Source of the DNA: Gracilaria domingensis
Taxonomy: Eukaryota; Rhodophyta; Florideophyceae; Gracilariales; Gracilariaceae
DNA: 64,000 nucleotides
Assembly (NCBI GenBank): GCA_022539475.1
Contig: VCMS01000262.1
Location: 69,619 to 133,618 of the forward strand
Direction of reading: 5' to 3'
Both the position numbers and the translations under genes were made by a program. Each line of letters begins with the position of its first letter. Position 1 is the first letter of the stretch. Shown here piece by piece: positions 7,225 to 44,850 of the stretch. The notes beneath the pieces are model-generated. The model was not told the origin of the DNA and did not search any database. It saw nothing but the letters and a program-made list of their open reading frames with translations.

Positions 7225-7288
7225 CCGTCGTACGTTTTTCCGACCTCGCACTCGCTACGAAGTGCGAGGGCGGAAAAAAGTACGACGG
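7225..7288. repeat. 28-bp-arm hairpin in the right module
   Basis: The arms CCGTCGTACGTTTTTCC...CGCACT and AGTGCGAG...AAAGTACGACGG pair around the loop CGCTACGA. The copy in element II (37929-37992) pairs slightly better, since a mismatch here (GACC) is GCCC there. Confidence 0.9.
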
Positions 7289-8070: not shown

Positions 8071-8118
8071 ACTTTTGATGCGTACGTAGCTCACGAGTTG
8101 CAGGTGCAGGTTCCTCAA

Positions 8119-8693: not shown

Positions 8694-9179
8694 ATAAACG
8701 CACTATAGTTGCTAACTAAACGCAGTAGTACTCCTACATATATCGAAGTAGGCACCACGGGAGTGCAGAGAGAGCCCATTGGCTGATTTATTACACGTGT
8801 GGTTGCTTCAAAACAATCCACATGCGCCAAGTGATGGCCTCCTAGCGGAGTGACTGGCTGCTAGCTCGCAGAGAGGTACGGCTCGTGGAAGTGGGGTGAG
8901 TATGTCAGGTATGTCAGGAATGCTGGAACCAGAGCCCGTTTACTGTGGGGGCGCTAGTTGCCTGTTGAGTAGGAAGCGGAAGCTGAATGCTTCAGGGGAG
9001 GTGCCGAAATCCGATATGCATCGGCGTACAATCCGTCTAATGTGTCAGTCGGATTGCCAGCTGTAGAGTTATAGAGCTGATTACCGTCACTGGCTCTTCT
9101 TCCTTTGTGTCTGGCGTGTACCACCTCACTCCTTCTTGTTTTTGGGCTTCGAGTTGAAGACTGTGCCGCTCTCTCGTAT
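8694..9179. other. Spacer between element I and the copia element
   Basis: No supported gene. The sequence follows the right end of element I and precedes the 3' end of copia pol. I looked for a copia LTR here matching sequence beyond 14040 and saw none. Confidence 0.6.
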
Positions 9180-21053: not shown

Positions 21054-22960
21054 TGAAAACGCCATTTCTGTAAGGCGTCGGCGATGACAAGCCAAGGGGA
21101 CAAAACACCAATAAAAACTTTGCTTTCGTAGAAAGTACCAGCCTAGTAGGCAAGAAGAGCACTAGCTTATGATAGTTCGTAGAACACACAGGGAGGAAGA
21201 CAACACCAAGAACAAAGAGGGAAGGTGAAGTATTAGAAAAGGAGATAGTGAACACGGATAGACAAACAAGAAAGATATATGTATTGATAGATGAATAGGG
21301 TTGTGTCACAACTCGAGAATGAAAAGAGAGACCTGTGCTCTAATAGATAGTATTGTTCTTCTTCCTAAGGGTCGCACGATGGCGACGGCTTCTGTAGTGC
21401 ACACGCAGATCGTGAGCTTCGGAGAACTTGATGTCACAAACCTTGCAGTGGATGTCCTGCTCGGTGTAGTTGGCGCGACGTACGGCTCTACGATGGCGTC
21501 GGCCTGCTTGGTGAACTTCAAGCTGGCGTTGACTCTGAACCTTAATGTCGCAGACGCGGCAGCACTTTAGGATTTGCTTACGTGGCGGAGGGTTACGACG
21601 GCGCTTCTCCTTCTGGTGGGCTACACGAAAGATGTGGCGCTCGCGTGGCCCGTCAAGAGGCTGAACAGCCGACTTCTTTATCTGAGGAACGGGATCGGGG
21701 ACTTCTTCTATACGCTCGTCCGGATCGACCACGGACGAATACTCGCTGGATGAAACGATAGACTTTGGCACTTGATGTGAAACAAACGAAACGTTAGTAG
21801 TCACACAAAATGCCAAAAGAGTAGCTGTAGACAACTTACTCTTGAACGATTGCCTCCGGGCCGTAGGTTAAGGACAACCTTACGCTGTATCACACAGTGC
21901 GTCTAGCAACAACAGGTGCAAAGCAACACTATGTGAGGAACAGAATCGCAACGCGAAAGAACCAGCAAAACCAGGGACCAAGGCCGAAACGGGAAGCAAT
22001 AGAACGGATGCAGGCAGCAGAAGGCCGCCAAACAGCAAGAAACGGGGAACAAACGAAGATGACAACAACAACGGTAGTTCGGGCAAGACAGAATGGCAGA
22101 TGGAACAACAACAGCGAAAGAAACCAACGAAGGGAACAAAAGAGACAAGAAAGGCCAAACAAAGCGGATAATGAAAGGCAGAGTCACGCCTGCACAAGGC
22201 TAACCCAATGGAAGGGTGGTGCAGACGCTTTGCCTACTCACACAGGACGCGCCCAGACAGAGGGTCAGTGTGAGTGGCAGTGAGCGAGGGAGGGCGGTGA
22301 GACCAGGCCGCCAAGGGGAGAAGTAGAGAGAGAAGTAGGGGATGAGGAAAGGTTGAGGACGACAAAGGGAAAAGGAGAGAGGTTGGAAGGTTGTGGGGGG
22401 GGGGGGTGGGGGGGAAGGTCGTCGAAGGGAAGTGGTCTGGCCGGAGTTGAGTCGGAGGCGACTGCTCCGGCCCTTTTATGCACAACCGCACCGTCGATTC
22501 CAGGCGAGAATCGACGGTACGGTTGGCTTGGACAATGGCTGCGTCGTATCTACCGTACTAGTCTATAAGAGGCGTAGGTGGTAGATACTTTAAGCGCATA
22601 TGCCGCCACAGGGGGCGCCTACGCAACGCAGTACACAGCGTGGAATGCACGTGTACTTGCGCAAGCGCAGGCGCCTCCTGTGGGTGACCACGAATTTGGC
22701 AATTGACAGCCGATGAGGTCGGGTGGTCAGCGTTGGAGCGCTCTCTGCCACTTAAGTAGACAATCTCATGTCGCCCTGCTTGTAGTGCGGCGCCTCCTGG
22801 CCACACGCAAGGTAGATTCTGCGTAGAAAACTAACTAAACCTAAGATAGGATTAACTATAATAAAGCATTTTTAAACTATATTCTGTATTCCCGCTGCGT
22901 TGGGCACAACGAAGGAGTGTAGACACGCACACCTGTCCGTGTACCGTTTGACGGGCCACA
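21054..22960 (-). repeat. Gypsy B 3' LTR (1.9 kb)
   Basis: TG...CA ends on the minus strand. It contains the zinc-finger ORF 21340-21834, a G-run near 22395 that differs in length from the other LTR, and a GC-rich stretch. The inner flank, read on the minus strand, is the purine-rich TTGGGTTTGGTGG, a likely polypurine tract. Confidence 0.93.
21340..21834 (-). CDS. LTR-encoded double C2H2 zinc-finger protein (3' LTR copy)
   Basis: The 164-codon frame has two U1/zf-met-like fingers: CRVCDIKVQSQRQLEVHQAG followed by RRH, and CKVCDIKFSEAHDLRVHYRS followed by RRH (CX2CX12HX5H). A basic stretch (HQKEKRRRNPPPRKQ) precedes them and an acidic segment (DPDERIEEVPDPVP) lies upstream. The N-terminal codons look intronic: on the minus strand AGAGTAAGT is followed by ACTACTAACG and TTTCACATCAAG, a donor, branch point and acceptor about 65 nt apart, so the true start may lie in an upstream exon. 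The frame lies wholly within the LTR. Likely role is nucleic-acid binding; function unknown. Confidence 0.6.
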   Translation of the reverse strand: MSTATLLAFCVTTNVSFVSHQVPKSIVSSSEYSSVVDPDERIEEVPDPVPQIKKSAVQPLDGPRERHIFRVAHQKEKRRRNPPPRKQILKCCRVCDIKVQSQRQLEVHQAGRRHRRAVRRANYTEQDIHCKVCDIKFSEAHDLRVHYRSRRHRATLRKKNNTIY

Positions 22961-23716: not shown

Positions 23717-23718
23717 TG
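23717..23718. repeat. Target-site duplication of element II (left copy, TG)
   Basis: TG here and TG at 39384-39385 flank the insertion. One copy is needed to restore the integrase reading frame. Two to three bp is the usual duplication for CMC/CACTA-type transposons. Confidence 0.8.
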
Positions 23719-25715
23719 CGTCTGTGTTCTGCAAAGTGGAATATAGTCTGTTCGCTTTGGAAACTAAGCTAGTTTTGGGGCTATTTGGGGCGCGCAAGGG
23801 GATAGCCGAGGCTGGCACTCAAAAAATTAAGAAATTTTGGAATATTAAATTCCATTTCGCGCAGTTTAGTTCTTGGGTCCCCTAGTTTTTGTAGAGGTTC
23901 TACTTCGCCGCACCACCCCATTCACTCTTTTCCGCGACCCTCTCTCAAAACTGCACTCGTGCTAGTTTGCGTTTCCATTTTCTCCCATGTTGCAATGCCA
24001 ATCGCAACTCATCCCACCTCAATCATCCCATCACTTCTTCCCAGTCCACACCACCCCCGCTATTTACCCATTTCTCGCCCATCACGCGTTCGCATCCTCT
24101 CTTTCCGTCTCCGCAAACGTCTTTTTGTAGAAGTCCGGTGGACAGCTCTGCCCCTTCTCGTATACCCGCCTCGCCCCAAAACGGCTTCAAATCCCTCCCA
24201 TCCTTCTCTCCTCCTGTCCCCTCAGAATCCCCTTCGCAGTCCGCGCTACCTCCGCCGCACTCCTAAACCCAGTCACCACCGGAGCTCCCACTCCCTCCCG
24301 CGGCACCTCCTCCACCACCTTCTTCATCTCCTTACGCCTCTTCTTCAGACGGCTCTTTCCATCCCCAACCCCACCACCCTTTGTCTTCGGTGTCACAGGA
24401 GACCCCTTCTGCACCGCCACCATTCCCACACTTCCCTTCTCCGTCTTTCCCTCCACACCTCCTTTCAGCGTCTCCTCTTCCACCAATCTTTGCCTCTTGC
24501 CCAGCTCCTTCACCTTCTTCTCCAGCACGTCCAACCTCTCGTTCAGAACCCTATTCTCCTCCCGCAACTCTCCAACCTCCCTTCCCGCACACTCCACTAT
24601 CCCATACACATGATTTCTCATCTCCACTCCCAATACCGACAACGAATTCCGTAGGCTCGTAATCGCCTCAACCGAAACACCACTACCACCCCCACGCAGC
24701 ACCACACCGCCCATTTCCGTTACAATCTCCACAATTCCATCGTCCAGTTGCTCCTTCATTACCAAACCCAACATCCCGACCCTTGCCTTCATCTCCACAA
24801 GAAACCGCATCTCCCTGTCACTCTCTCCGCCCCCACTCTCTATCTGGTCTCCAACCTCTAACTGACTCAGATGCACCGCACCTCTTCTCTCCATTGCGAC
24901 CCCCTCCACCTCCAATTCTACACCCTTCTCCACCTCATCACCATCCCCTCTCCTCGCCTCACACTTCTTTCCTTCATCGGCCACTTCCTTCTTCTGCGAC
25001 ATCCGACCAGCCGCCGTAATCACGTCCTCTTCCTGCTTTGGTGACGGCGTCGGCGGTACCTCCTTCCGCTCCAACAGTGCCAACAGCTCCTCATCCTTCA
25101 CGTATCCGTTCGACATCTTCAGAAGAAGAAGTAGTAGTTGGATCGAAGTTTCCGCTGCGATACAGTGCAATCGAGCTAAACTGTGCTGTCCACCCCCACT
25201 GTCCAACCACACGGGCTATATCCAGCACCATGATTGTCCCTGTTTCCCTCATCCCATTTCCCGCCAAAACATCTACTGTACACCCCCGCACCTTCCACTA
25301 TTTAAGCGCCACCTCTCTGTCTCCTCTTTCGCGCTCACATAATCCCCACCCACCTCGCCTCGACCGGCGATATTTTTCTCTTCCACCGTAACCCCACTCG
25401 ATGGTTATAGCAAAACAGGAAGATATTGCCTGTGGAGGCAAGCTAGGGACTAGTGATTGTACTTAGAGTTGCTCACCCTCTGTCTCGACTGGTGGCATGT
25501 CCTTCTTCCGTCACATCCTTTGTGGGTTGTGACAAAAAAAGAATATGTCACCACTCGACACCGGATGGGTAACAATGGTAGCACGTAGAGTAGTTCATCC
25601 TCCCTTTCAGCGTCCACTGGGGATATATTGATGTTCTCTCACATCCTTTCCCGGTTGTGATACAAGAGAAATACATCTCCAATGGAGACGGAGAATTTAG
25701 TTGTGATAACACGTA
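23719..25715. repeat. Left-terminal module of element II (copy of 56390-58378)
   Basis: About 2 kb shared with element III, from CGTCTGTGTTCTGC to AACACGTA, where the two copies enter different cargo (ECM29 here, ribulose-phosphate epimerase there). It holds the coiled-coil gene. Next to the cargo are two imperfect tandem units of ~110 bp at about 25470-25682 (core TCACATCCTTT..GGTTGTGA). GAATATAGTC-like decamers occur in direct orientation near both ends. Confidence 0.9.
24187..25116 (-). CDS. Coiled-coil protein of the left module (element II copy)
   Basis: Not recognised by family. The start at 25116 (MSNGYVKDEELL) is chosen because sequence upstream is Leu-rich and promoter-like. Features: an acidic/basic N-terminal half, a heptad-rich coiled coil (REVGELREENRVLNERLD then VLEKKVKELGKRQRLVEEE), a basic cluster KSRLKKRRKEMKK that could be a nuclear signal, and a conserved C-terminal block FRSAAEVARTAKGILRGQEE. 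It ends at TGA 24187, where the copy at 56752 has TTA and continues for 35 more residues, so this copy is truncated by a nonsense mutation. It may be an accessory DNA-binding protein of the transposon; that is inference. Confidence 0.6.
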   Translation of the reverse strand: MSNGYVKDEELLALLERKEVPPTPSPKQEEDVITAAGRMSQKKEVADEGKKCEARRGDGDEVEKGVELEVEGVAMERRGAVHLSQLEVGDQIESGGGESDREMRFLVEMKARVGMLGLVMKEQLDDGIVEIVTEMGGVVLRGGGSGVSVEAITSLRNSLSVLGVEMRNHVYGIVECAGREVGELREENRVLNERLDVLEKKVKELGKRQRLVEEETLKGGVEGKTEKGSVGMVAVQKGSPVTPKTKGGGVGDGKSRLKKRRKEMKKVVEEVPREGVGAPVVTGFRSAAEVARTAKGILRGQEERRMGGI

Positions 25716-26971
25716 CTACGAACAAAATTAGCAAGAAGACCACATCGGAGTATCCTCGGGATCGCGCGCTTGCCTCGTCTCTCGCTGCTGGGTTGTGTCG
25801 GATGGCGCCCGATACGACCCAGCAGCACGCAAGCTCTATACGGCCCTTCGCATACATGGGGCGCCGTGAAACAGACGACGACGCAGGAGATGACAGCAAG
25901 AACTGGAAAGACGCCTGGAATAAAGGTGCGCCAAGTACTCAGGCCGGGCTTCGTTTGTACGCAAAGGCGATTGGTGAAATATGTGAGCAACGGCTATCTA
26001 CTTCTGCTCAGTACCGCGTGAAAAGGAACGCCGCAGCCACGCTAGGGGACCTCGCGAACGCTTCAAATGACATTGTCGATGTACAGTACATGTCGCGAAG
26101 CGCAAAAACGTTGTTAGCGGTGCTTCCAGGTCATATTTGGAAAGAACAGTATGTTGCAATTGAGGCCATTGGGTCTTTGGCAGATTTCTGTTCAAGCGCA
26201 TCTTTGTGGGAGTCGTGCGGAGGGAGCGTAGCTGTTGTGCAGCCCCTGCTGTCCGAATCTGATCGAGGGAAGAAGGATTATCGAATTGCAGCAATTGATG
26301 CGGCGAGGAAGGTGCTGGTTAACACCCGAGAAACCGTTTGCATGTACGAGAAAGTCAGGGACCACTTGTCAGAGCTCGTGTCTCCAAATTCGTCGGATGT
26401 AAACGCTAGCGTACCAAATGTGTCACAGATGGTGTGGGAAACTGGGCCTGATGCAGATGCTGTTGATGCTTGGAACAAAGCGCGAAAGTCGCAAAAGCTA
26501 TTGTGCAAAGCAGCGATTCAGTGCCTGCAATCTTCAATCACAGGGGTGGCGGGCGTTGAGAAGCTAGAAGAACACGTACTTAATTTGCTGTGTGTGTTTG
26601 AAGAACTGATGCAGAACGATTGGGACATTCGACTAACTGTACTTCAAGCCATTGAGAAGTTGTCCGAACGTTTATCCAAACATGAACTGCAATTTAGAAA
26701 CTCCCTGGAGCGCACTGAGACATTGATTAAACGATTAGTAAACCTCAGCAAAAACGGCATTCACGAACCCAAGTATAAAGTGCTAAGAAATAGTGGGTTA
26801 ACAATTCTTGATCACTTGGTCAACGTTTCCAAGGATTCTACGGCAATGAAGGATGTGATTTTAGAAGACACGCTAATTGCGATCCAGAGGTCTCGGAACG
26901 AAGATTCCGAGCCTGGGGTACGATCCGTTGCAATTAAACTATGCACGGCGTTTGGCATTTCGTGTTCATAG
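25682..26971 (+). CDS. ECM29: ECM29 C-terminal fragment fused to the transposon terminus
   Basis: The 429-residue frame matches the C-terminal HEAT-repeat part of ECM29, the proteasome adaptor and scaffold. Landmarks are IRPFAYMGR (53-61), W..AW..GAPSTQAGLRLYAKAI (~75-97), a block of HEAT helices with LPGHIWKEQYVAIEAIGSLA (~148-167), and a later DWDIRLTVLQAIEKL repeat. ECM29 is normally around 1,800 residues, so more than three quarters is missing. The ATG and the first eleven codons lie in the left module of the transposon (shared with 58345-58378), so the captured fragment has been given a start codon by the element. The frame is open with no lesion. Whether it is expressed cannot be told. 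Confidence 0.8.
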   Translation: METENLVVITRTTNKISKKTTSEYPRDRALASSLAAGLCRMAPDTTQQHASSIRPFAYMGRRETDDDAGDDSKNWKDAWNKGAPSTQAGLRLYAKAIGEICEQRLSTSAQYRVKRNAAATLGDLANASNDIVDVQYMSRSAKTLLAVLPGHIWKEQYVAIEAIGSLADFCSSASLWESCGGSVAVVQPLLSESDRGKKDYRIAAIDAARKVLVNTRETVCMYEKVRDHLSELVSPNSSDVNASVPNVSQMVWETGPDADAVDAWNKARKSQKLLCKAAIQCLQSSITGVAGVEKLEEHVLNLLCVFEELMQNDWDIRLTVLQAIEKLSERLSKHELQFRNSLERTETLIKRLVNLSKNGIHEPKYKVLRNSGLTILDHLVNVSKDSTAMKDVILEDTLIAIQRSRNEDSEPGVRSVAIKLCTAFGISCS

Positions 26972-27493
26972 TTTAGGCTGGGGCTTTTGAGGTTGAAAAG
27001 TAGAGCTTAGGCAGTTAGGCAAAGAGGTTCAGCTAATCTGTGTGTTTACGTATCTACCTGGTGACCGTCCAACGACTATGAATAACTCAATCGCGCGCCA
27101 CTCACTTGGAAGCGCGGTCCCTTTTAGCTCATTCTAGGTAATCCAAGTAAGCTTTGAACGCAACTGAAGCTAGTTGTAATCGCCTTTACATGCGTGCGGT
27201 GTACGCGTCGGTAGTTACTCGTTGGGGGATGCTGTGCTTGAGACCTTGGGTGAGCACCAGACGCATGTGTTCCATCTGTTCATGCCGAATGAAAGCGCGT
27301 TAACTCTGCATCATCACCCGGGGGCATGTGTATAAAAGAAGAACAGAAAGCTAATGGTCTGAACTCGGAACCGGCGACCACATTCTGATGACGACGATAG
27401 AGTGCATCAGTGACGGCTTTTCAGGATAATCTTCTTTCCCTCGACGTGCCAATGATGTCGCCCAAAGGCTGGCAGTAAGATTTTCTCGTGGTG
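26972..27493. other. Spacer with no gene seen
   Basis: Between the ECM29 fragment and the lectin pseudogene (the two are convergent). I see no coding signal or strong repeat. Confidence 0.6.
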
Positions 27494-29200
27494 TTAGACC
27501 ATTCGATGCACTTTCCGCACGGCCAACGACATCTTATTGACATGGTATACGCCAACTCTCAAAAGCGCTTGAATGAGTACGAACATGATAAGGGTACCAC
27601 TTCCGCCAGGAGACTGCTCGGTGATGCTCTCGTGATGATCCACCAACTCCTCGTTCAGATCATCATGCGAATCAGAAATGTTATGCGTCTTCTACTTAAG
27701 CGCACGCCGCGAGTTATGAAGGCCTTGCAACTGGCTAGAAAACCTGCCCGAAGCATACGACAAGTCGCCTGCAGTAGCCTTAAGAGGTTTCAAAACGGCC
27801 ACCAACTGCCACATGTCGCCCTTTTGTTTCTCCATCTCGCGAATGAGTTGCGCAATGATTTGGCGCACACCCTCCAAGCTTTCTTTCTTGCGCATTCTCG
27901 TCGCCGAGGCCCTTGAAAATGGACGTCATAGAGTTGTACACCTCGTACACCTGCAGGTCCGAAGAGCCTGAGATCGACGAGGTGGCGTCCTCTCTGCGGT
28001 GCATGCGCGCGGCAGGGTTCAGATCGGTGCGATGCGGAGGCGGAGCAGGGGCGGTGCTGTAAGTGCTACACCACTGGAGCTACCATTGAAAGCCGGCGGC
28101 ACGTAGCCGCGCGAATTATCGCTCTGCTGCTGTTGTTGATGCTGTTTCCGCTGCTGTTGCTGTCACAGACCACGGTGGTCGGTCCGTAGTTCCGGAAGCA
28201 GAACCGGCGCCATACTGCTGCGAATAGTAGTCGAATCGATAAGTGTGGGCAACCTGAGCGGATTCATGAATGAAGACGGCGTCGTGGACCTCATGATTGG
28301 CAAAGAAAGGGCCGGTCTCAGCAGGGAGTGCGAGGTAGCCACCACCAGAGAATGGCAGCTGCACACCCCAAACCTTGAAGCACGTATGCCAGCGTTATGG
28401 GGCGCGTGGGTTCAAAGCGACGCCCACGTGAAGATTGCCACCGAGCAGCTGGACGTACAGGCGAATCGGGTGGTTCATCTCAAGCGAGCAGCCCTCGAAA
28501 AGCTCGGTATCCGCGCCATCGGTGTCAGGCTTCCATTGCTTTGTTCCGTCCGACACATAAACGTACATTTCGCGTTCGAGAGTTGGAAAAGGTGTCGATA
28601 ATGATGCCAAGCCCCACAAATGTATGCGCAATACCCATGGCATAGCCTAACCTCGGGCAGTCCCACAAAAAGAAGAAGTCCATACCATTGGCAGGGTCAT
28701 GCGAATCGCGCACGGTATCCAACTCCACGTCGAAGTAGCCGTTGAAGTTTTGCGTATCGGTGGCAATGTCGTTGTAGAACAGCGCTTAATTTGACTGGCT
28801 CGCTGACATGAGGAGGACCACGTCGCGGCCGGTGCGGCTGCGCGTGATCATGGTCGTGCCCAGCTGAAACCCGTCGGAGACGGGGTCACCGGCGGCGATG
28901 GGCCTCGTTCGGGTGCCGAAAGGAGAGGTCCGGGCCTCCCGCGCCCAGGTAGAGAAACTAGAATAGCTGCGGGTTTTGCTGCTGTCACTACAGCAGCGAC
29001 GGCAACGCGAGGGCTCTGGTAGCCAGCAGTAGCAGCACGCAAATCGGCGCGAGACGCGGCGTCGACGACGACTCACGGCGGATGGCGGCGACGGTGAACG
29101 AGTGGCGCGCGCTAAAGTTCGGGAGGCTGGAAGCGAGGTCCGTGAGCGAACGGAGGGCGTGGTCTACGGCGGTATGCAGGGTGCCAGTGATGACGGGCAA
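27494..29200 (-). pseudogene. L-type lectin (ERGIC-53/VIP36-like) pseudogene
   Basis: Minus-strand remnants in the order of an L-type lectin cargo receptor. They are: a hydrophobic leader (APICVLLLLATRALA, ~29050); DGFQLGTTMIT; a block ending with TAA at 28786-28788, then ALFYNDIATDTQNFNGYFDV; NGMDFFFLW; GLGIIIDTFSN; HPIRLYVQLLGG; LPFSGGGYLALPAETGPF; a helical stem (IIAQLIREMEKQKGDMW); and a C-terminal membrane segment TLIMFVLIQALLRVGVYHV before the stop at 27494. The blocks alternate between frames (28395-28643, 28525-28728, 28116-28364, 27692-27895), so the gene has an in-frame stop and several frameshifts, though some shifts could be small introns. The 5' part is markedly GC-rich. L-type lectins sort glycoproteins in the ER-Golgi pathway. 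Confidence 0.7.
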
Positions 29201-31270
29201 CGGCAGCGATCCCCACGCGTAAGTGCACGCGGGGGTGGAGCGCGAAGGAGCCTAGCGCAATTGTACTGCACGTACAGCGCGTATAAAATGACTGAAGCGC
29301 GCAACATGCGCACATTGGAAGGCGTCGCGCGCCACGTCACATCGACGACGCACAGCTCTGCGGCGCGAGACAGCCGCGCGCGGAGTGCGCCGAGCACGGG
29401 AATGCGCGCCCTCGCGCGCGTCAGCGAGGCGCTTCAGCTCGAACAGCATGCGCTACATTTTGGCTGGCGTTGCGTGCAGTGTGTTTTTTAGGAGGCAAAC
29501 GGCACTGACCGTCTTCGCACGCACCTTGCTCTCATGTCTTCGACGCCCCGCTGGCGCCATCCCGACCACCGCTCCGGCACGCGCCGCGCCTAGCCGCCGC
29601 CCCACCGGCTAAACTTTCCAGGTATTCCGGCGGGGGCATCCGCCCGTCGTCGATCTCTCTGCGCCTCACACGCCACCGCCACGCCGCCGATACGCCGAAA
29701 TCGCCTTCCAAGACCCTGGCGCACCCGCACCCAGCCCATCTGCGTCTACGCCTTTGTCAGGTCGCCCTGATTGATGTGCTGTTGCGCTTCGCTGTACTGT
29801 TTTCGTCAGCGCCTACGGCGGAGAGTCCTGCACATGTGTGGTTCGCGCAGCTTTTGGGCTTGCGTCCGCGCCATTCGATTCGGTCAGATCGATGTGTTTG
29901 GGGCGTTATGTGTGGATGCGTCTTGATGTGAAGCGTTTGCCAACGGACGCGCAGCAAGGCGTGGTCGTTGCTGGCCGTCTTCGATTCAACCTTTCTCATG
30001 TCTGTTTCTTTCACGTCGCGAAGAGAGTTTTCGTGGCGCTGGACTAGTCTTATCGGACCAATGTTGTCTTCTTCTACGCGTCAATCGTTATCACTTGCAT
30101 GCGAGACTGGTCCGCATTGGATGGAACCGTGAGGCACTTGAACGCATTTCTCGAGGAGATTGGCATCTCCGCACTCATGCCAGCACTTTGTTACCCAGCA
30201 AGACCGTTCAGCGCTTTCGGAGTTCACCCGGTTTTGTGAACGTTCAACGTCGATCAAATCTTCTGCGTGATCGTCCGCGGTTCCACTCGATACACGTCAA
30301 GGCACGAGGATCGATCTATTTTGTGTTACCAACGCGTTCGACTGTGTCGGTGCCGGAAGCATCTACTGGTTCTATGCGCGTCAGGGCCATTGATCTGGGT
30401 GGTATGCTTCACAAATTTCCACTGCGTGGCACTGCCGCTCGGTTCGAAGATGCTCTGAAATGTCATTGGCATCACCATCGCATGGGCAGCACCGTTTTTC
30501 ATCTTGATCGCGCTGTATTTGAGAAGAGTGGTGTGCGACACACGGTCTGGGCTAGGGGTTCGGCATAGAGTCGGTCGGGTGAGCATGCTATTCTATCGGC
30601 GTTTGTACGATGTTACCGGCACAAGCGCCGTCACGCTGGACCTTGCTGCGGCTGTTACGGCGGGCTCTTCCAGTACCACTGGGATTAGTAAGACGGGGGG
30701 TCGGCGCTTTGGGCTCCGCTGCCGGGATGGCGATGGGAGACAGCTGCTGACGATAGATAAACTTTTTCGGCGGCGAGGCTGCGAATCTTGCGGACAACGT
30801 ACGACTTGCGTATCCCGAAAAGTTTGGAGCAGAAGAGAGCGAAGAGTTGTATGCGGCGAAAAGAACATTTGAGTGTTTACGAGGGTAGGAGACGTCCACT
30901 AAGATATTCGCGAACAACGAGAGTCGAACGTTGGGGAAGAGCGCGCTCCGTCTTCTGATAAAGTTTATCACAACTGGTTTCTCAAGTTGTCGCCGAGTTG
31001 ATGAGCACGGCGAGAGTATTGAGCTCCAGCTGTACAAATTGAAGCCCTGTGCCCAACATGATTACGGGTGCTGGCGATGCCTCTCAGAGATCATCATTTG
31101 CGCCGGCGCCCGTGCCAACACATCCTACCAATCTAGATTGACGAACACGTTCTGATCATAGCGAGAGCAGCGTCGTTCTTTATTCATCAACATGAGTGCC
31201 AGGAAAGCGATCCCGTTTGCATTGAAGATCAAGGCTGCGTGAGGGAAGCTCTCTAGGAGAACCATGGATG
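29201..31270. other. Cargo region without a recognisable gene
   Basis: GC-rich at first (to ~29720), then average. Open frames exist on both strands (e.g. 30095-30568 plus, 157 codons; 30588-31037 minus, 149 codons) but none shows a family motif, and they overlap each other. I would not call any of them a gene. Confidence 0.5.
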
Positions 31271-31274
31271 AAAA

Positions 31275-32801
31275 CTAATGGCGCAGACACCTCGTACAAA
31301 ACTCTGGCACCTTTCCTGCGTATAGATCACTCACATGTTTGAATGCCGCCGCGCCGACTCCAGTCGTCAGCCGGCTTCCAGCTGGCACGGAAGGCTCGAA
31401 GTGCACCCCCGAAGTTAGTCTTGAGAATCCGCAGCTATCGCTCGCAGCTTTGAGACTCTCGAACGATAGAGTTATATTGCTCGTGATCGGGCTCAAGGCC
31501 ACCCCTTGCGGTAGATTCAGCTCGAACTTGGGAATAGATCCACCCTCATTGATGTCAGGAGAGCTCAACGCCATCTGAAGGTGTTCCAGCGAAGCCGTGC
31601 AAATTGCTGCTGACCCAGACGGATATTCCGAATGCGGTTGCGTTCTAAGAACCGGTTCCCACTCCTCAGCTGAGACAACACCAACGCCTTTTCCGACCCC
31701 TTTGAAAGCCGTCACTTTCCTTCCCTTCAGAAGTCTTCGAATCAAAGTCTGTTGGCGAACATAGTCATGGCGTCTTTTCTCTTTCCAAGCGAGGAGAACT
31801 GCGTCGTGCTGAGCCATCATCTCTCCAAGGAACAACCTGGAAAGCGCTACAGGCGTCAAATTCAATTGCCTTCCATAGAAAGGAATGAAGGAACCCAAGG
31901 AGAAGAACTTATTCTCCCACCAATAGGCCAGTGCAAGTTGTTCCTCTGTAACGGATCTCGACAAAGACAACAGATCCGCGATGAACTTGTTCACTTTTCG
32001 GAGATCCCTTTGGCCAATCTTCTTCTTCCGATTGGGGGTGTCGTAAACAGGTGGAACTCTGCGGGATTCGAACTCCCGTTCTCCAATCACAAGCGGTTTT
32101 CCGAGTGCTCCGAGGTGAGGCGCAACGTGCACCTGTGTGGCAAACCTGCCACGGAAGTCAGACTGCTGAGTCAGTGGTTGCCATCGAAGTGGTTTGAATA
32201 GCTTACTAGGAGACAAGTTTGCTGGATTTTGCGGCTCGTAACCAGTGGCATCTTCGAACGGTGCGAGGTAATCATTCCTCGACAGATCTCCCAAAGAGTT
32301 CCAACCATCTTCGGTAAAGTATTCTACCAGGTCCTTCGATACGACGTTTGCCCAGCCCACTTCAGTATCAGTGTCGGTCGAGTTGTCGAATGGGTTAATG
32401 TCAAAACGCTGGAGAAAGGCGGCGTATGGGGGAATCTCCTGAGAGAACTCTGGCTCGATCAAACGGAAAAAGATTTGACGTTCGATGATAGCCAGAGAAA
32501 GCGGTGATGAGCAGAAGCGAGAAGGTATGGAGTGGCGAATTCCTAGGAACGATAACGCGAAGGGATGAAAAGCCGATGTATATTCATGAATGGCGACAAC
32601 GAATAACAGTGCGTATCGAACAGCGATCGGTGTTTCCATGCGCAAGATTTCATTCGGGAATAGGACAGTGACAAGCTCATTGAAGATTGTCAAGGGAATG
32701 GTGAGCTCCTCAGCAATCTGTTCGGGTGGTAGATTGCTCTGCGATCTGGCCGCGGACAGAAGTACAAGGAATACGAAGAATGAGATGAAAAGTTGCTTCA
32801 T
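31275..32801 (-). CDS. Secreted vanadium-dependent haloperoxidase-like protein
   Basis: 508 residues starting with a clear signal peptide (MKQLFISFFVFLVLLSAARS). Family blocks in order: RWQPL (206-210) followed by APHLGALGKP; EEQLALAYWWENKFFSLGS (~286-304); HDAVLLAWKEKRRHDYVRQQTLIR (~332-355), where K and R of the vanadate site normally lie; EYPSGSAAIC (392-401); and SRLTSGVHFEP (460-470) with the Arg and His of the last motif. Two deviations stand out: PSGS where the canonical enzymes have PSGH, and VRQQ where RP is usual. Vanadate binding or halide oxidation may therefore be altered or lost. The frame is open throughout, the best preserved cargo gene in element II. It belongs to the PAP2/haloperoxidase superfamily, common in red algae. 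Confidence 0.75.
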   Translation of the reverse strand: MKQLFISFFVFLVLLSAARSQSNLPPEQIAEELTIPLTIFNELVTVLFPNEILRMETPIAVRYALLFVVAIHEYTSAFHPFALSFLGIRHSIPSRFCSSPLSLAIIERQIFFRLIEPEFSQEIPPYAAFLQRFDINPFDNSTDTDTEVGWANVVSKDLVEYFTEDGWNSLGDLSRNDYLAPFEDATGYEPQNPANLSPSKLFKPLRWQPLTQQSDFRGRFATQVHVAPHLGALGKPLVIGEREFESRRVPPVYDTPNRKKKIGQRDLRKVNKFIADLLSLSRSVTEEQLALAYWWENKFFSLGSFIPFYGRQLNLTPVALSRLFLGEMMAQHDAVLLAWKEKRRHDYVRQQTLIRRLLKGRKVTAFKGVGKGVGVVSAEEWEPVLRTQPHSEYPSGSAAICTASLEHLQMALSSPDINEGGSIPKFELNLPQGVALSPITSNITLSFESLKAASDSCGFSRLTSGVHFEPSVPAGSRLTTGVGAAAFKHVSDLYAGKVPEFCTRCLRH

Positions 32802-32989
32802 CTTTGCGTAGTTTGGCGGTGGCGAACGAGTCGACTTTGAGGTAGGGATTCGAATCAGTGCAGCCGAGATCTAAGTAGGCACGAGTCGTGATTTCCGGGA
32901 GCGCATCGGAGTAGATGAGATTATCATTGCTTACCAACTGAGTCCTGTGCAGGTTTGACTGAAGAGGATCAGCTGGGAACACATCCATG

Positions 32990-33949
32990 AGAGCGAATCA
33001 AAAGCGTTGGTTTCCTGTCAGATTCAGTATCTGCAGGGTTTATGACGGCTTGAGGTCTCTACAGGACACATCGATCCCGCCTCACGTAAGGAATATGGAA
33101 CACAGATTGGTCTAGCAGAACAAGGTGGCTTGATATGTTATATCAGAGCTGCTTCACCCCTATCGGAGCGAAGCAATCGACCAAACGCCATGGCACCCTA
33201 CCTCACCCAAGGGGTTCATGCAAGATGGAAACCACAAACAAGCGGCATGGCAGGGACAAGCTTGGAAGAACATAATGGCATTTTCGGAGGGCAAAACGCT
33301 TGTCACAAGCGTTTACCTCTGTGGCTGGCGATTGAAATCGCCGCCGTCTTGAGCAGCACAGCGGCCAACGCGGCGCTCGCATGCGTAGCCGATCGCTAAA
33401 GACACGGGAGTAAATCAATTCCTTCGTTCGTTCACCTGCGTAAATGGCACCCGAGGGAACCAATCCACTTCAGCGGCATGACATCCTCCCGTTGGTTGAA
33501 TCTCTCCGCAAGTCTCGTGACAAACGAGACCGCCATGCAGGAAGATCCTACACGGTTGCGTTCGGCCTGCCAGACGCAGTCGTCGCTGCCAAATGCCTTC
33601 ACAGTTGGAGGAGCTGCTGCTCGAGGAGAAAGCCATTTTTGTCGGCCTCGCACGCGGCACGAAGCCGTGGCTTGAGCATCACGCGCTGGCGACTGTCGTC
33701 CATCTTGTGCATGTTCTCGTGGCGAGCGCCTGCGACGCGTGCAGTGCGGGAAGCGGGAGCGGTGCGCGGGTGTAGGGCGTGGATTCGGTTTGCGGAAGGT
33801 ACCGACGGTACCAACGGTACCAACGGTGCCGACTATAGCTCAAGTGCCGGCGATGCCACAGGCTGATTGGGGCTGATGAGTCGCTGCGCGACAGCGTCGT
33901 CTCGAAGGAAGACTGCCGCATGAGTCTGTGGACGCTACCAGAATGAGGC
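32990..33949. other. Intergenic cargo DNA with a short GGTACCAACGGTACC repeat
   Basis: No gene supported. A small tandem/palindromic run of GGTACC-containing 9-mers lies at about 33798-33832. Several overlapping open frames on both strands lack motifs. Confidence 0.55.
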
Positions 33950-34345
33950 GAAAACGTGCCCGCGGGTGGGGGGGGTCGGTCGTGTTAGGGTAGGTACCCT
34001 AACACGACCGGACCCCCCCGCCCGCGGGCATAAAATCGTACATTTTTCAAAAAATCGGCCAAAACGTGCCCGCGGGCGGGGGGTCCGGTCGTGTTAGGGT
34101 ACCTACCCTAACACGACCGACCCCCCCGCCCGCAGGCATAAAAAAGCACATTTTTTAGAAAACCGGCCAAAACGTGCCCGCGGACGGGGGGGTCCGGTTG
34201 TGTTAGGGTAGCCACCCTAACACAACCGACCCCCCCCCACGCCCACGCGCACGTTCTGGCCACATTTTGGCACCATGCAGAGACCTCCCAAAACACCTTC
34301 CTCCACACTTCCCGCACTTATTACGGTGCACCTGCCCGCCAACAC
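33950..34345. repeat. Short relative of the palindromic satellite element
   Basis: Three GTGTTAGGGTA-x-TACCCTAACAC palindromes alternate with CATAAAATCGTACATTTTTC-type units. The right end has the same GTGCCAAAATGTGGCCAGAACGTG and GTGTTTTGGGAGGTC blocks (reverse complement) as 2867-3940. The left end lacks a clear counterpart, so this copy looks truncated. Confidence 0.85.
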
Positions 34346-35349
34346 GTGAACGCTGCTGGCCACGTGGATTGGCAGGAGGTAAAAGAGCTGTATATACAAC
34401 GCCGGCTGTACATCAATAAGAGTATATCTCAAGTTTTATAAGCTCTTAAAAAGCACAATTTGAGAGCGCAGTGATTACTCGCATAAGTCTAAATCCACTA
34501 CAACCACCTGTTCACAGACAAAATTTTAAACCGTTTTGCAGCGTTTCCAAACCTCCCAAAACACAGTTTGATGCATTACTCACAGTTTTTTTGTTGCAAG
34601 CACAATATACATTCATTGGACAAGACTCAACTAGTTTTCGTATCCAAATGATGCTCATCTAGTTACAAAACCCCACGACCATGTGTTTGCTACAAGTTGT
34701 GTACTTATTGACAAACTACACTATTTACACTGCTCAGAGCAGCACGGTGACGAACTACAAAAGCGCCTCAACACTCTCACGCACAAAAGTGGTAATGCGC
34801 CGGGATGAGCTGCAGATAAACAGAGTGATGACAGTAGGTAGCTACTTAAAATACTCGCCACCCTTGTTTTCGGTGAAGATACAAATTCACCGATGATGTA
34901 GATGAGGTAATATCGTCTAGCATGAGCCCATCGGCTCTGGCTTTTTACGCCAATATCGAAATTTAATTGGGTCGTTCTGACGGGCTGGTAAACAGCACAG
35001 AAGGCCTTCAACGATCATAGAATCCCTGAATTATAGTGGTAGTGGATTTCTCTGCGGAACACTAAAAAGAACCAAATGGAGTTTTGATCAGCTAACTACT
35101 ACATGATCCTCACAGGTTTAGAGAACGGGGGCTGTAGCAGCTCCTATATGCTAAATTCATTCAGTATAAAAATCTATGGAAGAAAAACGCAACAAGAGTG
35201 GTAGTTGAAAGCAAAACATATGGTAGTTATGAAAACCCTTCAGCCCGGCATGCTTGGGCTTGTAGCACATGACAATAGTTCCAATATTGAACTCCTATCG
35301 CTTCGCCTCTCGGTAACAAGGCCTGTCAGCAACAATACAAGAGAAGATA
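34346..35349. other. AT-rich spacer with no gene seen
   Basis: Between the satellite and the truncated transposase. I see no coding or repeat signal. It does not match the corresponding position of element I, so the 3' part of the transposon here has been replaced. Confidence 0.55.
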
Positions 35350-37695
35350 TAAATCGACGTGTTGTGGAGATACCGTAAAATGCTGCCAAAGGTGTTAGTT
35401 CTTCTTCTGTTAAGAGCCGTTATAAAACTTCAGAGTTCCACTTCCAGAGCTATGAATTGCTGCCGACTACGTTGTCGAGCAGCATTTGGAGGCTTCAATC
35501 TGCCACCGAAGAGACGAAATAGAGCTTTCATTACATCATGGCCCACTAATGCACCTATAATTATTCCAAGCAACGTCCGAGTACTGAGAGAAAATTTTTC
35601 TGATTGGGGCCGTGTCCTGCGCTCCCCATCAGATTTCAAAGAATTCCATCATGAAAGGAAAAATATGTCAATGTCTTTGTATGCTTTGGCCTCCATCATT
35701 CAAAGGAGATCTGCCTTGGTGAAGGTTCCATTCAGTAACCTGCCTTTCTTCGTCGTGGACAAATCTATAGGCAAACTTCTGACAAAAAAGTTGCATTGCA
35801 TGGAAGATAGATTTGCGTTTGTAAAGTTCTGGATTTGAGTACGTATCGTTCGAAATGAACGTGACGCGGATCATCCGCTCTAAGCACTGCAATAGAAACA
35901 TGATGATTCTATTGCAGTGCTTAGGGTCTCTGACTACAGTCTCTCGATTTCTGGAATATTAATCAGTTTCAATATGCCGAGATGCAAGTTGCGTAACTGT
36001 TCGAAGCGAGCTCTCCTTGTTTCGAACAGACTGCATAGAAATAACCCCTGGATGAATCTTACGGTCAAGGCGGTTTTGATGGACGAGAGAATGAGAGATA
36101 TGGAATTGGAACGCATGAAAATATCCGACTTGGATCTCGTCTCCCTTGTACGACGTAAGTTTCTTTCTCCTTCGCCTTTCTTTGCATATTCGAGAATAAC
36201 TGAGTATGTCTTTCTGACGCTTTTAGTGTGGTTTTGGGAGAGTCCAGTGAATGACGTAAGAACATTACCGCCTAAAGATGAGGAAGGGAGTTTGCATCTA
36301 TGACAAGGGCTTTCCGTTTGGCTCCTATGAAGAGTAGACAGAATGTCCTTAGCCTCAGAATATCCGCACAAAGACTTGCAGAGGATAGCACACTCGATAT
36401 ACTGCGTCTTCGCCGATGAACTGAAAACCTTTCTGCATTAGATGTATAATTTGCTACAGGACTTGACGAAGAGATTCTTGAAGGATGTCCATCCTGGAAT
36501 CGCGTAGAGACTTGCTAGAAACGAATGGCATTGCGTCTGCTTCAGATGCGAAAACCTGTACCAGTGTTGTAAGAAAGTATGCCACTACTGTGAGGTCATC
36601 ACGGATGCGTAGCTCGTCGGAGAAGTTGAGAAATATGAGGTGAAGAGTACAGGGGGTAACCGATGTTTGCTTTAGAGTTGTTGAAGACTTATCGGTGTAT
36701 ACATGCAGAATACCTACGAAAGATTCACTGTAACTTATTTCTTGGGAGTACCACACTATTCTACTATCCAAAGAGCCCATGACCATTTCCTTAAGTTTTG
36801 AGGTGGCGTTTCTTGCGAGAGAGCCGGACATGGGGTGAGATATTTTCGTGGAGTGGGTCTGAGGTATAGGGTGGAAGAATGTGTTTTCGTTGTTAGCCAA
36901 CTGGAGCTGTTTCACAAGTGTCTGAACGGGGTCTCTCGTGTAGAGGGTGGCGCTGAACTTACATCCTTCTGGCGAGACAGTTCTGCGATTGAAACCGTCC
37001 TTTGAGGCGTATCGTTCGAAAATGGCGTTCTTCAGTTCTGTACAGCGCTTGGAACTTGTTATGGTCTCGTTGAATCGCTTTTGCGAGAATCGCGGGTCCC
37101 GAAGTAGCCCAATTAGCTCGTCCGCCTCACGATGACCAAGGTTGGAAGCTACTGAAGCCAGACAAACCGTGAGATAATCCATATGCAAATCACCTAGGGC
37201 CTCCTCAGAAGGCACTGGGCGGGAACTGCTTCCGTGTTCTCGCTCTAATGACGCGGGACCCGGGGAAGGAGAAACACAATGCGAAGTGTCCGGAATGGGA
37301 GGGGCGCACGGAGTGGGGTCGACGATGTCCTCGGACACTGGAGGCTCGGGAAGGCGACAAGGGGCAGTGACCGTTTCGGAAGATGCCGGCGCGGGTGCGG
37401 AAAGCTTGAGACGCTTGCTTCTCCGAATGGGCCGGCTATTGTCGTCTTCCAGCGCTGCTTTCAGACGAAACGGGCAATGGTTGACATGCTGTTGAAGGGA
37501 TAAGACTCCTCGGCGAGTAACGAAGGGGCACCCATGCTTCTTATGTGTACAGTAGTAGACCATGGGAAGAAGAAATGAACGAGAAACGACGACAAAGACT
37601 GCAAGGGAAGGGCGTCCGAAGGGAGAAGGAGGTCGAGCGACAGTCAATATCGACGTCTTGCTCAGAACGGAGGATATATTTTGAGTTTTAATCAC
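35350..37695 (-). pseudogene. Truncated Plavaka-like transposase, element II
   Basis: The N-terminal 413 codons (36454-37695) are open and nearly identical to the element I transposase, including the Cys/His cluster CTHKKHGC...VNHC at the ATG 37561-37563. Beyond ESLRQVL the frame is lost. Diverged remnants (about 80-85% by eye) continue to ~35350, corresponding to about 4740 in element I, and everything downstream is missing. It cannot encode a complete transposase, so movement would need a source in trans. Confidence 0.88.
35880..35924. repeat. Perfect 18-bp hairpin inside the decayed transposase
   Basis: CTAAGCACTGCAATAGAA and its exact reverse complement flank the loop ACATGATGA. Element I has only one arm-like sequence at the matching position (~5200), so the left arm is an inverted duplication unique to this copy. 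Confidence 0.85.
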
Positions 37696-37760
37696 GTGCT
37701 TTCGTTCAAAAAGGAACGTAGGTACACGTCGACCTCAACACAAGGGTGTACTTCTCGTAT

Positions 37761-39383
37761 TATCTACCACTGGTTATAAACCTGTGGTTTCCCAACGTTG
37801 TACGCTGTACACTTGTCCAATCTCGCACAGAAAAATAAATCTCTTCCCTCCGCCGCCGCCCCCGCCCGTCCGACGTCCGACCTTTTGTTACCGTCGTGAT
37901 CCGTGCCATCCTCGCGTTCTACTCCGCTCCGTCGTACGTTTTTCCGCCCTCGCACTCGCTACGAAGTGCGAGGGCGGAAAAAAGTACGACGGATTACGAA
38001 GTAGCGTGCTGAGAATGGAATCCATTAAGCGGACATGAAGCGTACCTCATTCTCTTTCTCCGCCCTCGTCGGATGCCTCCATAAAGCGGACAGCATCCGT
38101 ATCTCACGGATGTATTCCGTGCAGTCTTTTCGTACGTGCTTCCATTTCCTTCTACGTATCTTTGTTCTAAACCAACCAATCCTCACCACGTCTCTTCGCG
38201 CTCTGCGACATGTACACGGCAAGAAAACGGCTTTGGGTTACTTTTGCGAGTTACTAGGTACCTCGACTTTTCTAGCGCAACGTTTCTGTTTTGCTCTTAT
38301 CAATGGTACGTTCTATCGCATTTCAACTGTATCCAACGGAGCATTGACTAACTTATGGATACTTTCGGCTTGCGTATACAAGTAAACGACCAATTTCATT
38401 TCGTCTCTCAAGATCGATCTCTGGCTGTTCGGAATAGGCGATTCTGGTACTTGGTTGGGACATAGGCTGCTCTTTCGTTTATCGCATCTTGAGGTATGTT
38501 TGCTGCATGGGCATTCTTGGTGTCCTTGGTTGTGAGTTCTCGCTTCGACACCTTTCGCGCTTTACGATGATGGTGGGCTGGTAATCTAACCGATCCCTTT
38601 CCTTCTTCTTTTTCATTTTGCGAGTTACTAGGTCCCTCGACTTTTCTAGCGCAACGTTTCTGTTTTGTTCTTATCAATGGTACGTTCCATCGCATTTCAA
38701 ATGCATTCAACGGAGAATTGACTAACTTATGGATACTTTCTGCTTGCGTATACAGGTAAATGACTTTTGATGCGGACGTAGCTCACGAGTTGCAGGTGCA
38801 GGTTCCTCAAGTAGGGAACCATGCATCTGGGCATGGTTCCCTACATGAGGAACGGAGAGGATGAGGCGCTTCGCGCCTCATCCTCTCGGAGTGCGTATTT
38901 GTTCTACCGATACAGCCGATGGTGGACGTGCAGTCTGCCGCATCTGCCGCAGATTGCGCCTACACCCGCTCCATCATGGGGATATGGTACATGTAATATA
39001 GCGAAGTAGTGGTTAGCAAAAGCGGTCGTTAGAAGAATAGATACGAATAAAACGGTATGATTTCATAATGGGCATCATCTGTACTAGCACTAGTATTCCA
39101 TGCGTTGCAGGGTATCATTCCGCAGAAGGTATCGTGTAATGTGCACCTTAATGGAAACTGAACCTAGACTTCGCGAAATACAGTTCAGGTAGCCCTCGAC
39201 TAAAGAACTAGCACGATTGGAACTCCACCAGTATTTACTGCACAGCGATTCTGGACGACCCAAGCAATTATCTGCAAATTTTGAAATAATTGATCTCGAT
39301 ATTTTTTCAAAAAATTTACTGGACGACCCTTGCCAATTTCTGGACGACCCTCGCCAAAAACTAGCATCTGCAAGAGACAGACG
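37761..39383. repeat. Right-terminal module of element II
   Basis: The counterpart of 7060-8693: same hairpins (37929-37992, 38811-38844, ~38855-38887), same duplicated ~145-bp unit and same CTGGACGACCC motifs. It ends CAGACG at 39383, immediately followed by the TG duplication and gypsy B integrase codons. Confidence 0.9.
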
Positions 39384-39385
39384 TG
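39384..39385. repeat. Target-site duplication of element II (right copy, TG)
   Basis: Pairs with 23717-23718. Confidence 0.8.
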
Positions 39386-43900: not shown

Positions 43901-44850
43901 ACGTCATCCTCGGTGACTACAGAAACTTGGTTGGGTCTGGGAACTTCCGGGATTTCTTTCTGATTTTCGGCATCGAAACGGACCTTCTTTTCCGAATGGC
44001 GCTTCCAACACGTTGCGATGGAATGTCCCATCTTTCCACAGCCCCCACAACGCGTATCGCGATGCGGATTCTGTGGACAGCGAGTAGAAAAGTGACCAGG
44101 CTTCTGACAGTAGCCACAAACTTGCTCTCCATCAGCCTTCGGAGGTGGTCCTGACTTCTTCTTCATCAAGAGAGTGAGTTCTGCAAGCTGACTAGCTAGC
44201 TGATCCACCTTGTCTGCAAAGGGATCCCTATCAGAAGGGTCGACGGGCCTCCTTTGTAACACTTTCTTCGGAGGAGGCATAAACGCCAGTGAACCGCCTG
44301 CTCCGAGGGCCTTCTTGCCGGCCACAAAGGATTTGATGAGGTCTTTCAACGACTTATAGTCGCTTGCTCCGCGGAATATCACAAACTGAGCTAGGTCTGC
44401 GTACTCCATAACCGCTTTACGGAGAAGGCCGAACTTGGCCTTCGCGTTGAACTCGGCCTTGTCGAAGCAAGCGTCCATGCGCTGGAGGGAACCAAGGAGA
44501 TCACCGTAGTCCAAACGGGCAGTCACAGCTTCTCGGATATACTCCTCGGGTTCCTCAGCAGCGCCAAAGCGATCGAGCAGGGACTTCTTAACTGATATGT
44601 AGTTGGCCGCGTTCGGGGTGAGCACGCCATCTACAGAGAAATTATTATAATAATGATCGAAGGCGTCACCACTTAGGAAGCCCAAGATTTCGGAGGAACG
44701 CTCCTCATCAGGATTTCCACGGGTGGCAACGTTCTCGAAGAAAAAGAGAAATCGACGAACATCGGAATTGTATCCGTCGAAGAGAGGCGTCGAGGTGTCC
44801 ATAGTATCGGGGCCAAGGGCACCTCGGCGAGAGTACCATGAAAACGCCAT
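40933..44850 (-). CDS. Gypsy B gag-protease-RT polyprotein
   Basis: The start is the ATG at 44848-44850 (MAFSW), inside the LTR. The open frame begins 10 codons earlier but that ATG is further into the LTR and lacks a gypsy A counterpart. Domains: capsid; zinc knuckles CGYCQKPGHFSTRC and CGGCGKMGHSIATC (~250-290); protease (TQALLDSGAVPNLMS, DVIIGNPTLEK); a long Glu/Asp/Pro-rich linker; RT (FCVDYRGLNQ, LDLFSGYWQV, MPFGLMNAPATFQRMM, YIDDVVIFSRS near residue 1194 from this start). It is uninterrupted for about 1,305 codons, then shifts frame at 40933 just before RNase H. RT is otherwise intact. Confidence 0.93.
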   Translation of the reverse strand: MAFSWYSRRGALGPDTMDTSTPLFDGYNSDVRRFLFFFENVATRGNPDEERSSEILGFLSGDAFDHYYNNFSVDGVLTPNAANYISVKKSLLDRFGAAEEPEEYIREAVTARLDYGDLLGSLQRMDACFDKAEFNAKAKFGLLRKAVMEYADLAQFVIFRGASDYKSLKDLIKSFVAGKKALGAGGSLAFMPPPKKVLQRRPVDPSDRDPFADKVDQLASQLAELTLLMKKKSGPPPKADGEQVCGYCQKPGHFSTRCPQNPHRDTRCGGCGKMGHSIATCWKRHSEKKVRFDAENQKEIPEVPRPNQVSVVTEDDVQDRETVAMAKRAADGAPLPKQARLEHRVGVKELLNPASDTPFRLIRSATRNRSGKPKKASTKKLSGKSMLQEHAGKYNVMEELANAPTGLTFGQLIRGDADAAKKDLRRIISGRSTTRKVNATQVERENSRLKVVPITVYGTMTQALLDSGAVPNLMSAELADHLLLTPNPTERTIKVADGNVARIRGTLEGVPVRFDDLRVSLEFLVIEKPPFDVIIGNPTLEKLHACIDLGTQEVTMSYNKKHVVIGLDSDRSGLEAFVPLSETDSEDFTSDSDAIPSDSEDESEDFANLPLPKQRTPGDAEVTLVAVIERDGDAGSQDGEEENDGEEEPANVTAQPTRAGPYEGPQVSDQARRPTQAEDSNGPNLTWRTIGTQIPLDSLTAERGENPHANNVHIAGPDGPQIPPEGERVAVGPAPRQQSQLISQYDDDEDRRFEDAEEEVQADPPVEERSGPNPSSFQSESTDTSVQPEDVNIVIPTSIAPRANNASEDTKVRPPDDGPVGESPAEFPDGGDDEDDFSPKEVDLIGSPLYRDPVLTIPIRDEVVLLPLAEGQSVTDFLDVRVQLRDPVPSPAHTPHLEAQNLPLNRVGMLEDDDSGGYVIAFEEDLPPDEIDAQTPGDDEHSQDPSRDEEVVAEPTCPAQDIEYSLQDPIAQDSLGRTLDRRDYPPDTNKEEVILERISHLPRDRRVDLLAVLDNLNVIAWSLYDLRPSDVPVTHRFDLSVRTPIHSKVRRLPPKHDDVVRKEVDKMLSAGIIKPSTSSWSFPVVIAHKKDGKPRFCVDYRGLNQVMTPDRWPLPNMEQIFDDLGGCSFFTTLDLFSGYWQVRMAPDCKEMTTFVCRQGTFQFEVMPFGLMNAPATFQRMMDAVLHGVEFARVYIDDVVIFSRSLEEHLYHLTRVLEILASHGLKIKISKCDFAQPPIKLLGHVIDKEGTSVDQDKIDVIQKAPEPSTVTELRSFLGLASYYRRFIKDFADTSAVLHAATTRKGN
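44821..44838 (-). other. Probable primer-binding site overlapping gag codons 5-10
   Basis: Directly after the LTR the minus strand reads TGGTACTCTCGCCGAGG. The TGG start is complementary to a tRNA CCA end, and the position abutting the LTR is where the primer site lies. It is also coding (Trp-Tyr-Ser-Arg-Arg). Gypsy A has TGGTCCTCGTCGAGG at 15935. The tRNA was not identified. Confidence 0.65.

Follow-up and report, generated by a model that had tools for sequence, protein, structure and literature searches.

A 15.7-kb cargo-carrying transposon of probable Plavaka affinity in the red alga Gracilaria domingensis

The stretch of DNA analysed here, called the window, comprises 64,000 nucleotides of the red alga Gracilaria domingensis (GenBank assembly GCA_022539475.1, contig VCMS01000262.1, positions 69,619 to 133,618). 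Its central feature is E1, a complete transposon of 15,665 bp at positions 23719-39383 (plus strand, conserved left end first), sitting within the integrase gene of a gypsy element that is itself complete. Between its ends E1 carries cargo related to ECM29 and to vanadium haloperoxidases, a relic resembling L-type lectins and a truncated transposase. Two relatives lie in the same window: E0, with its right end at 8693, and E2, of which the left 7.6 kb (56390-64000, plus strand) fall inside. The whole genome, 77.9 Mb in 680 contigs (labelled C1 onward), was searched for further copies; the window itself lies on C262.

A complete transposon within a gypsy integrase gene

The gypsy element that hosts E1 spans 21054-46741 on the minus strand and is bounded by 1.9-kb long terminal repeats (LTRs; 21054-22960 and 44839-46741) and a 5-bp duplication, GATAC. 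Its LTRs differ by 10 substitutions over about 1,903 bp (0.53%), and its length is 10,021 bp when E1 is subtracted. Reverse transcriptase, RNase H and the integrase zinc-binding domain all score above their Pfam cut-offs, and the integrase core (1.5e-6) falls just under its own. The initial annotation held that the two integrase frames join in register once the insert is removed; coordinate arithmetic agrees, since after discounting 15,667 bp both distances involved (39386-39200 and 23719-23008) are divisible by 3.

The termini of E1 are short and inverted, CGTCTGT...ACAGACG, and are flanked on either side by TG (23717-23718 and 39384-39385), recognized as a target-site duplication from flank comparison and empty sites. 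The left terminal inverted repeat, CGTCTGTnTnnTGCA, occupies 23719-23736 on the plus strand and the right one 39366-39383 on the minus strand; counted by eye, 13 of their 18 positions are identical. From 23719 the left end reads CGTCTGTGTTCTGCAAAG, and the right end, inverted from 39383, reads CGTCTGTCTCTTGCAGAT; the final 300 bp contain the motif CTGGACGACC three times. Both boundaries are set independently by other copies in the window. The conserved left end (23719-25715, plus strand) is 93.4% identical to 56390-58378 of E2, the conserved right end (36024-39383, plus strand) is 93.9% identical to 5306-8693 of E0, and homology ends exactly where 23719 aligns to 56390 and 39383 to 8693. The left end holds a minus-strand frame of 342 amino acids (aa; 24187-25215), whose counterpart in E2 has 377 aa.

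Empty versions of the insertion site were found among other copies of the gypsy element, a comparison that the initial annotation had named as a test. When the right flank was searched for in the genome, 40 of 134 candidates were scored (39 besides E1), and ten copies were extracted, one of them E1 itself. In all nine others the two flanks directly adjoin each other, with TG present once, and have 99.25% identity to the right flank of E1 and 99.5-100% to the left. E1 must therefore have arrived after the gypsy copy that hosts it.

A second copy of E1, preserved from end to end, lies at C449:13851-29528, in a different site and with its own 2-bp duplication. The two copies differ by 78 substitutions in 15,657 aligned columns (0.50%) and by 16 gap events. 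The C449 copy is inserted in a relic resembling the transposase of E1 itself: its flanks map to window positions 36277-36222 and 36223-35924 and overlap by exactly 2 bp on relic-type sequence, which amounts to further empty-site evidence.

Nested repeats are dense in this area, and spans of at least 18 kb between paired ends mostly lack duplications. Both observations would suit a composite block, in which two unrelated ends happen to flank several separate insertions and host segments, without any movement of a 15.7-kb unit. Against this stand the recovery of the whole of E1 elsewhere, flanked by a 2-bp duplication of its own, and the empty gypsy sites with a single TG. A composite origin is thus extremely improbable, and for E1 we reject it on the second end-to-end copy and the empty sites: positions 23719-39383 are one complete transposon. 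The same evidence upholds the earlier proposals that inverted ends and a TG delimit the insert on both sides and that its cargo arrived as one unit.

The ends of E1 belong to a large family. The 30-mers of the left and right end occur at 576 and 565 places in the genome, respectively, with at most 3 mismatches, and reversed-pattern controls gave 0 and 0; the bare 8-mer of the end is unspecific (1,466+1,543 places vs 983+997 in the control). On contigs C1-C66, a right end on the same strand lies within 30 kb of 47 of the 97 exact left ends, in agreement with the earlier expectation that such ends should be found paired elsewhere. These pairs use 44 distinct right ends, three of which each serve two left ends, and controls yielded 6 pairs (strand flipped) and 11 (wrong order).

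Both junctions were read in 28 spans, namely 24 of the 47 pairs, a pair on C91, E1, its C449 copy and E2; all were chosen by their CGTCTGT..ACAGACG ends and are thus no independent test of those ends. A perfect 2-bp duplication flanks 17 of the 28, including 16 of the 19 spans of at most 16 kb. For the first 23 spans the count was 16; shuffled flanks averaged 2.5 and did not exceed 8 in 2,000 permutations, and agreement extends across 3 bp in only one of these 23. The target dinucleotides are 77% A+T (57 flanks, two site pairs counted twice), as compared with half A+T in the window.

A recurring class of spans measures 22.6-22.9 kb (for example C34:184904-207547, C29:294202-316973, C5:513073-535972 and C23:11734-34552). 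In each of the five examined (C34, C29, C5, C23 and C91) no 2-bp duplication links the left flank with the right. Such spans may be composite, recombined, or two adjacent elements.

Transposase and relationship to Plavaka elements

E0 contains an uninterrupted transposase frame of 1049 aa (3833-6982, minus strand) that matches PF18759 with an E-value of 4.8e-18 and 65.9 bits (cut-off 26.3). A homolog search with the whole protein returned none; with the conserved region it found 59 homologs, 58 of which carry PF18759. When 45 of the 59 were aligned with the protein from the window, D332, C466, C469, H744, H748 and E768 proved invariant in all 46 sequences and D446 nearly so. By our own assignment, these residues would correspond to the D-D-E, C(2)C and H(3)H motifs of the CMCT clade as given in the available text of PMC12730594. 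E2 likewise has a 1049-aa transposase frame; this relative measures 14,863 bp in full and ends on the right at C262:140870 (window coordinate 71252).

In the genome, 123 matches to the Plavaka profile were scored from 672 candidates, a lower bound from which the window's own copies are absent; 21 of the 123 lie in 1,100-aa frames without stops. None of 14 control genomes gave a Plavaka match. The profile matches fall mostly into two sets by the range covered (about 41-272 and 106-317), which suggests a second Plavaka lineage in this genome.

E1 retains only a truncated relic of the transposase (35568-37734, minus strand), in which homology can be traced from residue 1 to about residue 694 of the 1049-aa protein; both the H(3)H motif and E768, the catalytic glutamate, are missing. 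Very likely, E1 is unable to supply its own transposase, and since the relic is truncated and lacks the catalytic glutamate, E1 probably moves in trans. Its link to Plavaka runs through the ends and the DNA homology that it has in common with E0.

Plavaka elements of the CMCT clade are described, in the text available of Kojima 2025 (PMC12730594), as having a PF18759 transposase, D-D-E with C(2)C and H(3-4)H, and 2- or 3-bp target duplications. The E1 family agrees with these fungal elements in PF18759 (by way of E0), in the motifs and in the 2-bp duplications, so that the initial annotation of a Plavaka-like element of CMC/CACTA type stands. It differs from them, as far as that text goes, in its red-algal host, in its CGTCTGT..ACAGACG termini and in its cargo of ECM29, lectin and haloperoxidase sequences, where fungal Plavaka elements can carry TET/JBP dioxygenases (PMC12730594). 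The same source gives the termini of PlavakaA as TGT..ACA and those of PlavakaB as CATCA..TGATG. Copy homology and empty sites place the ends of the E1 family four bases outside TGT/ACA, and CATCA..TGATG is not found at them. Nor does the family belong to CACTA/EnSpm in the strict sense, having neither CACTA-type termini nor a 3-bp duplication.

The cargo and its multiplication

ECM29 is a proteasome adaptor, and the first cargo piece is a C-terminal ARM-repeat fragment of it (ECM29-C; 25712-26971, plus strand; PF23731, 4.2e-7). The 436-aa frame of E1 begins 17 residues earlier, within the left end of the transposon; in copies not of E1 type the match begins at residue 18, where the left end stops, and the ECM29 frame of E1 is therefore a short chimera. 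Genome-wide, 102 ECM29 matches came from 96 of 544 candidates. Those listed as near full-length (at least 380 of the 436 residues at 90% identity or more) number 39, E1 and the presumptive host gene included, and 34 of them are free of stops. The probable host gene is a match of 90% identity within a 1,884-aa frame at C113. On C1-C66, the contigs with a full list of exact left ends, each of the five near-full-length copies (C5, C29, C41, C43 and, by DNA, C57) is found 1.9-4.5 kb inward of such an end and in the orientation seen in E1. ECM29-C lies at two distances from the left end, 1.94 kb and 4.25-4.46 kb, so at least two element types carry it.

The many open frames and the presence in at least two element types would be expected if the transposon kept the ECM29 C-terminal protein as a benefit to itself or to its host. 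Open frames, however, may simply reflect youth. Moreover, the form in E1 and the common form are about 98% identical in DNA and about 95% in protein, so that most nucleotide differences alter the protein, as expected without constraint; judged from these rounded identities, the copies appear to bear no sign of purifying selection. Selected cargo is accordingly an unlikely explanation, and most likely the cargo hitchhikes.

The second cargo piece (28116-28785, minus strand) is a relic in broken frames. Its two collinear fragments match PF03388 (Lectin_leg-like) with E-values of 0.0012 and 0.007, both under the curated cut-off, and an L-type (legume-like) lectin is a weak but fair identification. 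The third is an uninterrupted 531-aa frame (31275-32870, minus strand) resembling vanadium haloperoxidases (PF21167, 2.8e-16; PF22778, 1.5e-13), to which it also matches in the PDB (9ptr, 2.1e-37). Thus, of the cargo identities first proposed, ECM29 is upheld by Pfam and haloperoxidase by Pfam and PDB, and the lectin stays weak. The nearest named relative of the haloperoxidase comes from Agarophyton chilense (71%), and the named near relatives are gracilarialean; the one protein named G. domingensis in that search is only 51% identical to that of E1.

Nine loci, on C262, C341, C153, C449, C179, C371, C43, C169 and C323, have ECM29 and haloperoxidase in a constant arrangement: order and strand do not change, and the spacing, obtained by subtraction, runs from 4,886 to about 4,950 bp. 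Some of these might owe their existence mainly to segmental or allelic duplication of contigs rather than to transposition, and two pairs of E1 type have a common left flank: C43 and C323 have in common a 3.4-kb stretch (99.94%), insertion flank included, and C449 and C169 a flank of 56 bases. Some copies are thus alleles or duplicated contigs, and at most seven of the nine loci are independent. Four distinct left insertion sites nevertheless remain (C262, C449/C169, C153 and C43/C323), and C262 and C449, read at both junctions, have matching 2-bp duplications. Spread of E1 chiefly by duplication is for these reasons very improbable, and we reject it. The family is large and recently active, and pieces of the host's own genes are spread as one 15.7-kb package.

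Within each of the two pairs the ECM29 block is near-identical (the C449 frame is split), yet compared with E1 the haloperoxidase block reaches 99-100% identity in one contig and only 82-89% in the other, the lower values being those of C169 and C323. Assembly error, diverged alleles or gene conversion are possible readings. Haloperoxidase blocks of 3.3 kb at C46:161866-165168 and C427:27215-30512 are 99-100% identical to E1 and lie on contigs without a listed ECM29 match; they could be a donor locus, a contig break or another cargo element.

Origin and comparison with known systems

We conclude that, with high probability, E1 is a non-autonomous DNA transposon with cargo that moves by cut and paste and belongs to a high-copy Plavaka family of the CMCT clade. 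This rests on its exact ends, the 2-bp duplication, the empty sites, the second full copy, hundreds of sister ends, and relatives with uninterrupted Plavaka frames. Several points weigh against it. Only one of the nine spans of at least 18 kb has a 2-bp duplication, and three of the 19 shorter spans (C22, C41 and E2) lack it too, hence not every left-right pair is a single clean insertion. The two relic frames of E1 have no Pfam match. The termini of the family fit neither Plavaka sublineage in the published text available. The haloperoxidase block at C46, 99% identical over 3.3 kb, could be a donor locus or a further copy. Finally, mobilization in trans and the route of capture are inferences.

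In the proposed mechanism, a transposase from related elements would recognize the terminal repeats of E1 and move the whole 15.7 kb in trans. For plant Pack-CACTA elements, the available parts of PMC13317346 and PMC8903248 propose that neighbouring elements with complementary terminal deletions form a hybrid enclosing chromosomal DNA. E1 begins with an intact left end, continues with host DNA and finishes with a right end with truncated transposase, a layout that looks like such a hybrid. Its cargo may have been gained in this manner, when chromosomal DNA became enclosed between the left end of a first copy and the right end, with truncated transposase, of a second; host pieces from more than one locus would have been added over time, and the completed unit would then have multiplied. 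Spans of at least 18 kb without duplications could be such neighbours before fusion.

E1 is also a Pack-TYPE element, a non-autonomous unit that holds captured host coding sequence between compatible ends: its transposase is a truncated relic, and its ECM29-C matches the probable host gene. With plant Pack-CACTA and Pack-TYPE elements it has in common that it is non-autonomous, is of CACTA-type transposition and contains captured host coding DNA from several source loci (PMC8903248, PMC13317346, as far as available). Unlike them, it combines Plavaka-type ends and transposase with a length of 15.7 kb, a cargo block at nine loci and a retained N-terminal relic of the transposase. In one survey of Pack-MULEs, according to the accessible part of a review, none exceeded 7 kb (PMC6431247). 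The giant repeats of Amoebidium, up to 50 kb and flanked by or associated with Plavaka transposase, are alike in being large and linked to this transposase; they differ in consisting of tandem clusters of intron-poor genes with many tyrosine recombinases, and no mention of paired ends, target duplications or captured host genes of the kind seen in E1 is made in the passages available (PMC11244446).

In the literature searched, largely by title, no description of Plavaka in a red alga was found, and no title concerned ECM29 together with a transposon; the main text of a paper on Gracilaria sex chromosomes (PMC12502185) mentions neither Plavaka nor CACTA. The initial annotation as undescribed therefore holds for a red-algal Plavaka and fails for its wider features: gene capture by CACTA-like elements (PMC8903248, PMC13317346) and giant Plavaka repeats, flanked by the transposase in Amoebidium (PMC11244446), are, from the parts available, already in print. 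What is new, in the literature searched, is the red-algal host, together with the terminal type and the amplified multi-gene cargo. For Plavaka, best described in fungi, the full anatomy, target duplications and empty sites included, is thereby available from a red alga. Since a single genome holds a young, multiplied block of several cargo genes alongside hundreds of near-identical ends, the acquisition and spread of host genes by DNA transposons can be tested there. Annotation pipelines could also take such cargo for host gene families, as the forty or so ECM29 fragments exemplify.

Starship elements of fungi are large eukaryotic cargo-carrying units with a tyrosine-recombinase captain. Both they and E1 are large and carry cargo genes; the E1 family differs in its inverted ends, 2-bp duplication and DDE transposase. 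A Pfam scan of E1 frames, which took in part of the short ones, found no recombinase domain.

E2 contains a second gene, a 1,153-aa frame on the minus strand (E2 coordinates 5868-9326; window 61789-64000 and beyond), of which 75 of 756 candidate copies were scored genome-wide, with frames up to 1,645 aa. It has an HxD...H...R pattern, split by a stop in E2, which is typical of 2-oxoglutarate/iron dioxygenases; it has no Pfam match even at an E-value of 10 and no useful PDB match. The motif makes a dioxygenase possible. A bolder and rather doubtful proposal is that a Plavaka lineage with its own terminal type acts as the main gene shuttle of this genome, capturing host genes and recombining multi-gene blocks between copies, that the roughly 40 ECM29 fragments, perhaps expressed, may disturb host proteasome control or take over part of it, and that the second gene of the relatives, with its dioxygenase-like pattern, belongs to the same picture. 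If so, this gene would have a counterpart in the TET/JBP genes that fungal Plavaka elements can carry.

Directly left of the window (C262:61619-69618), next to E0 (window 1-8693), is a relative of E2 in inverted orientation; no left end was found for E0. E0 is without the second gene of E2 and has the right terminus AGAAAGACG rather than AGACAGACG. E0, E1 and E2 all contain arrays of GC-rich, self-complementary repeats, for example with the core TAGGGTAGCTACCCTA; the self-complementary block in E1 (33938-34270) is related to repeats within about 2883-3888.

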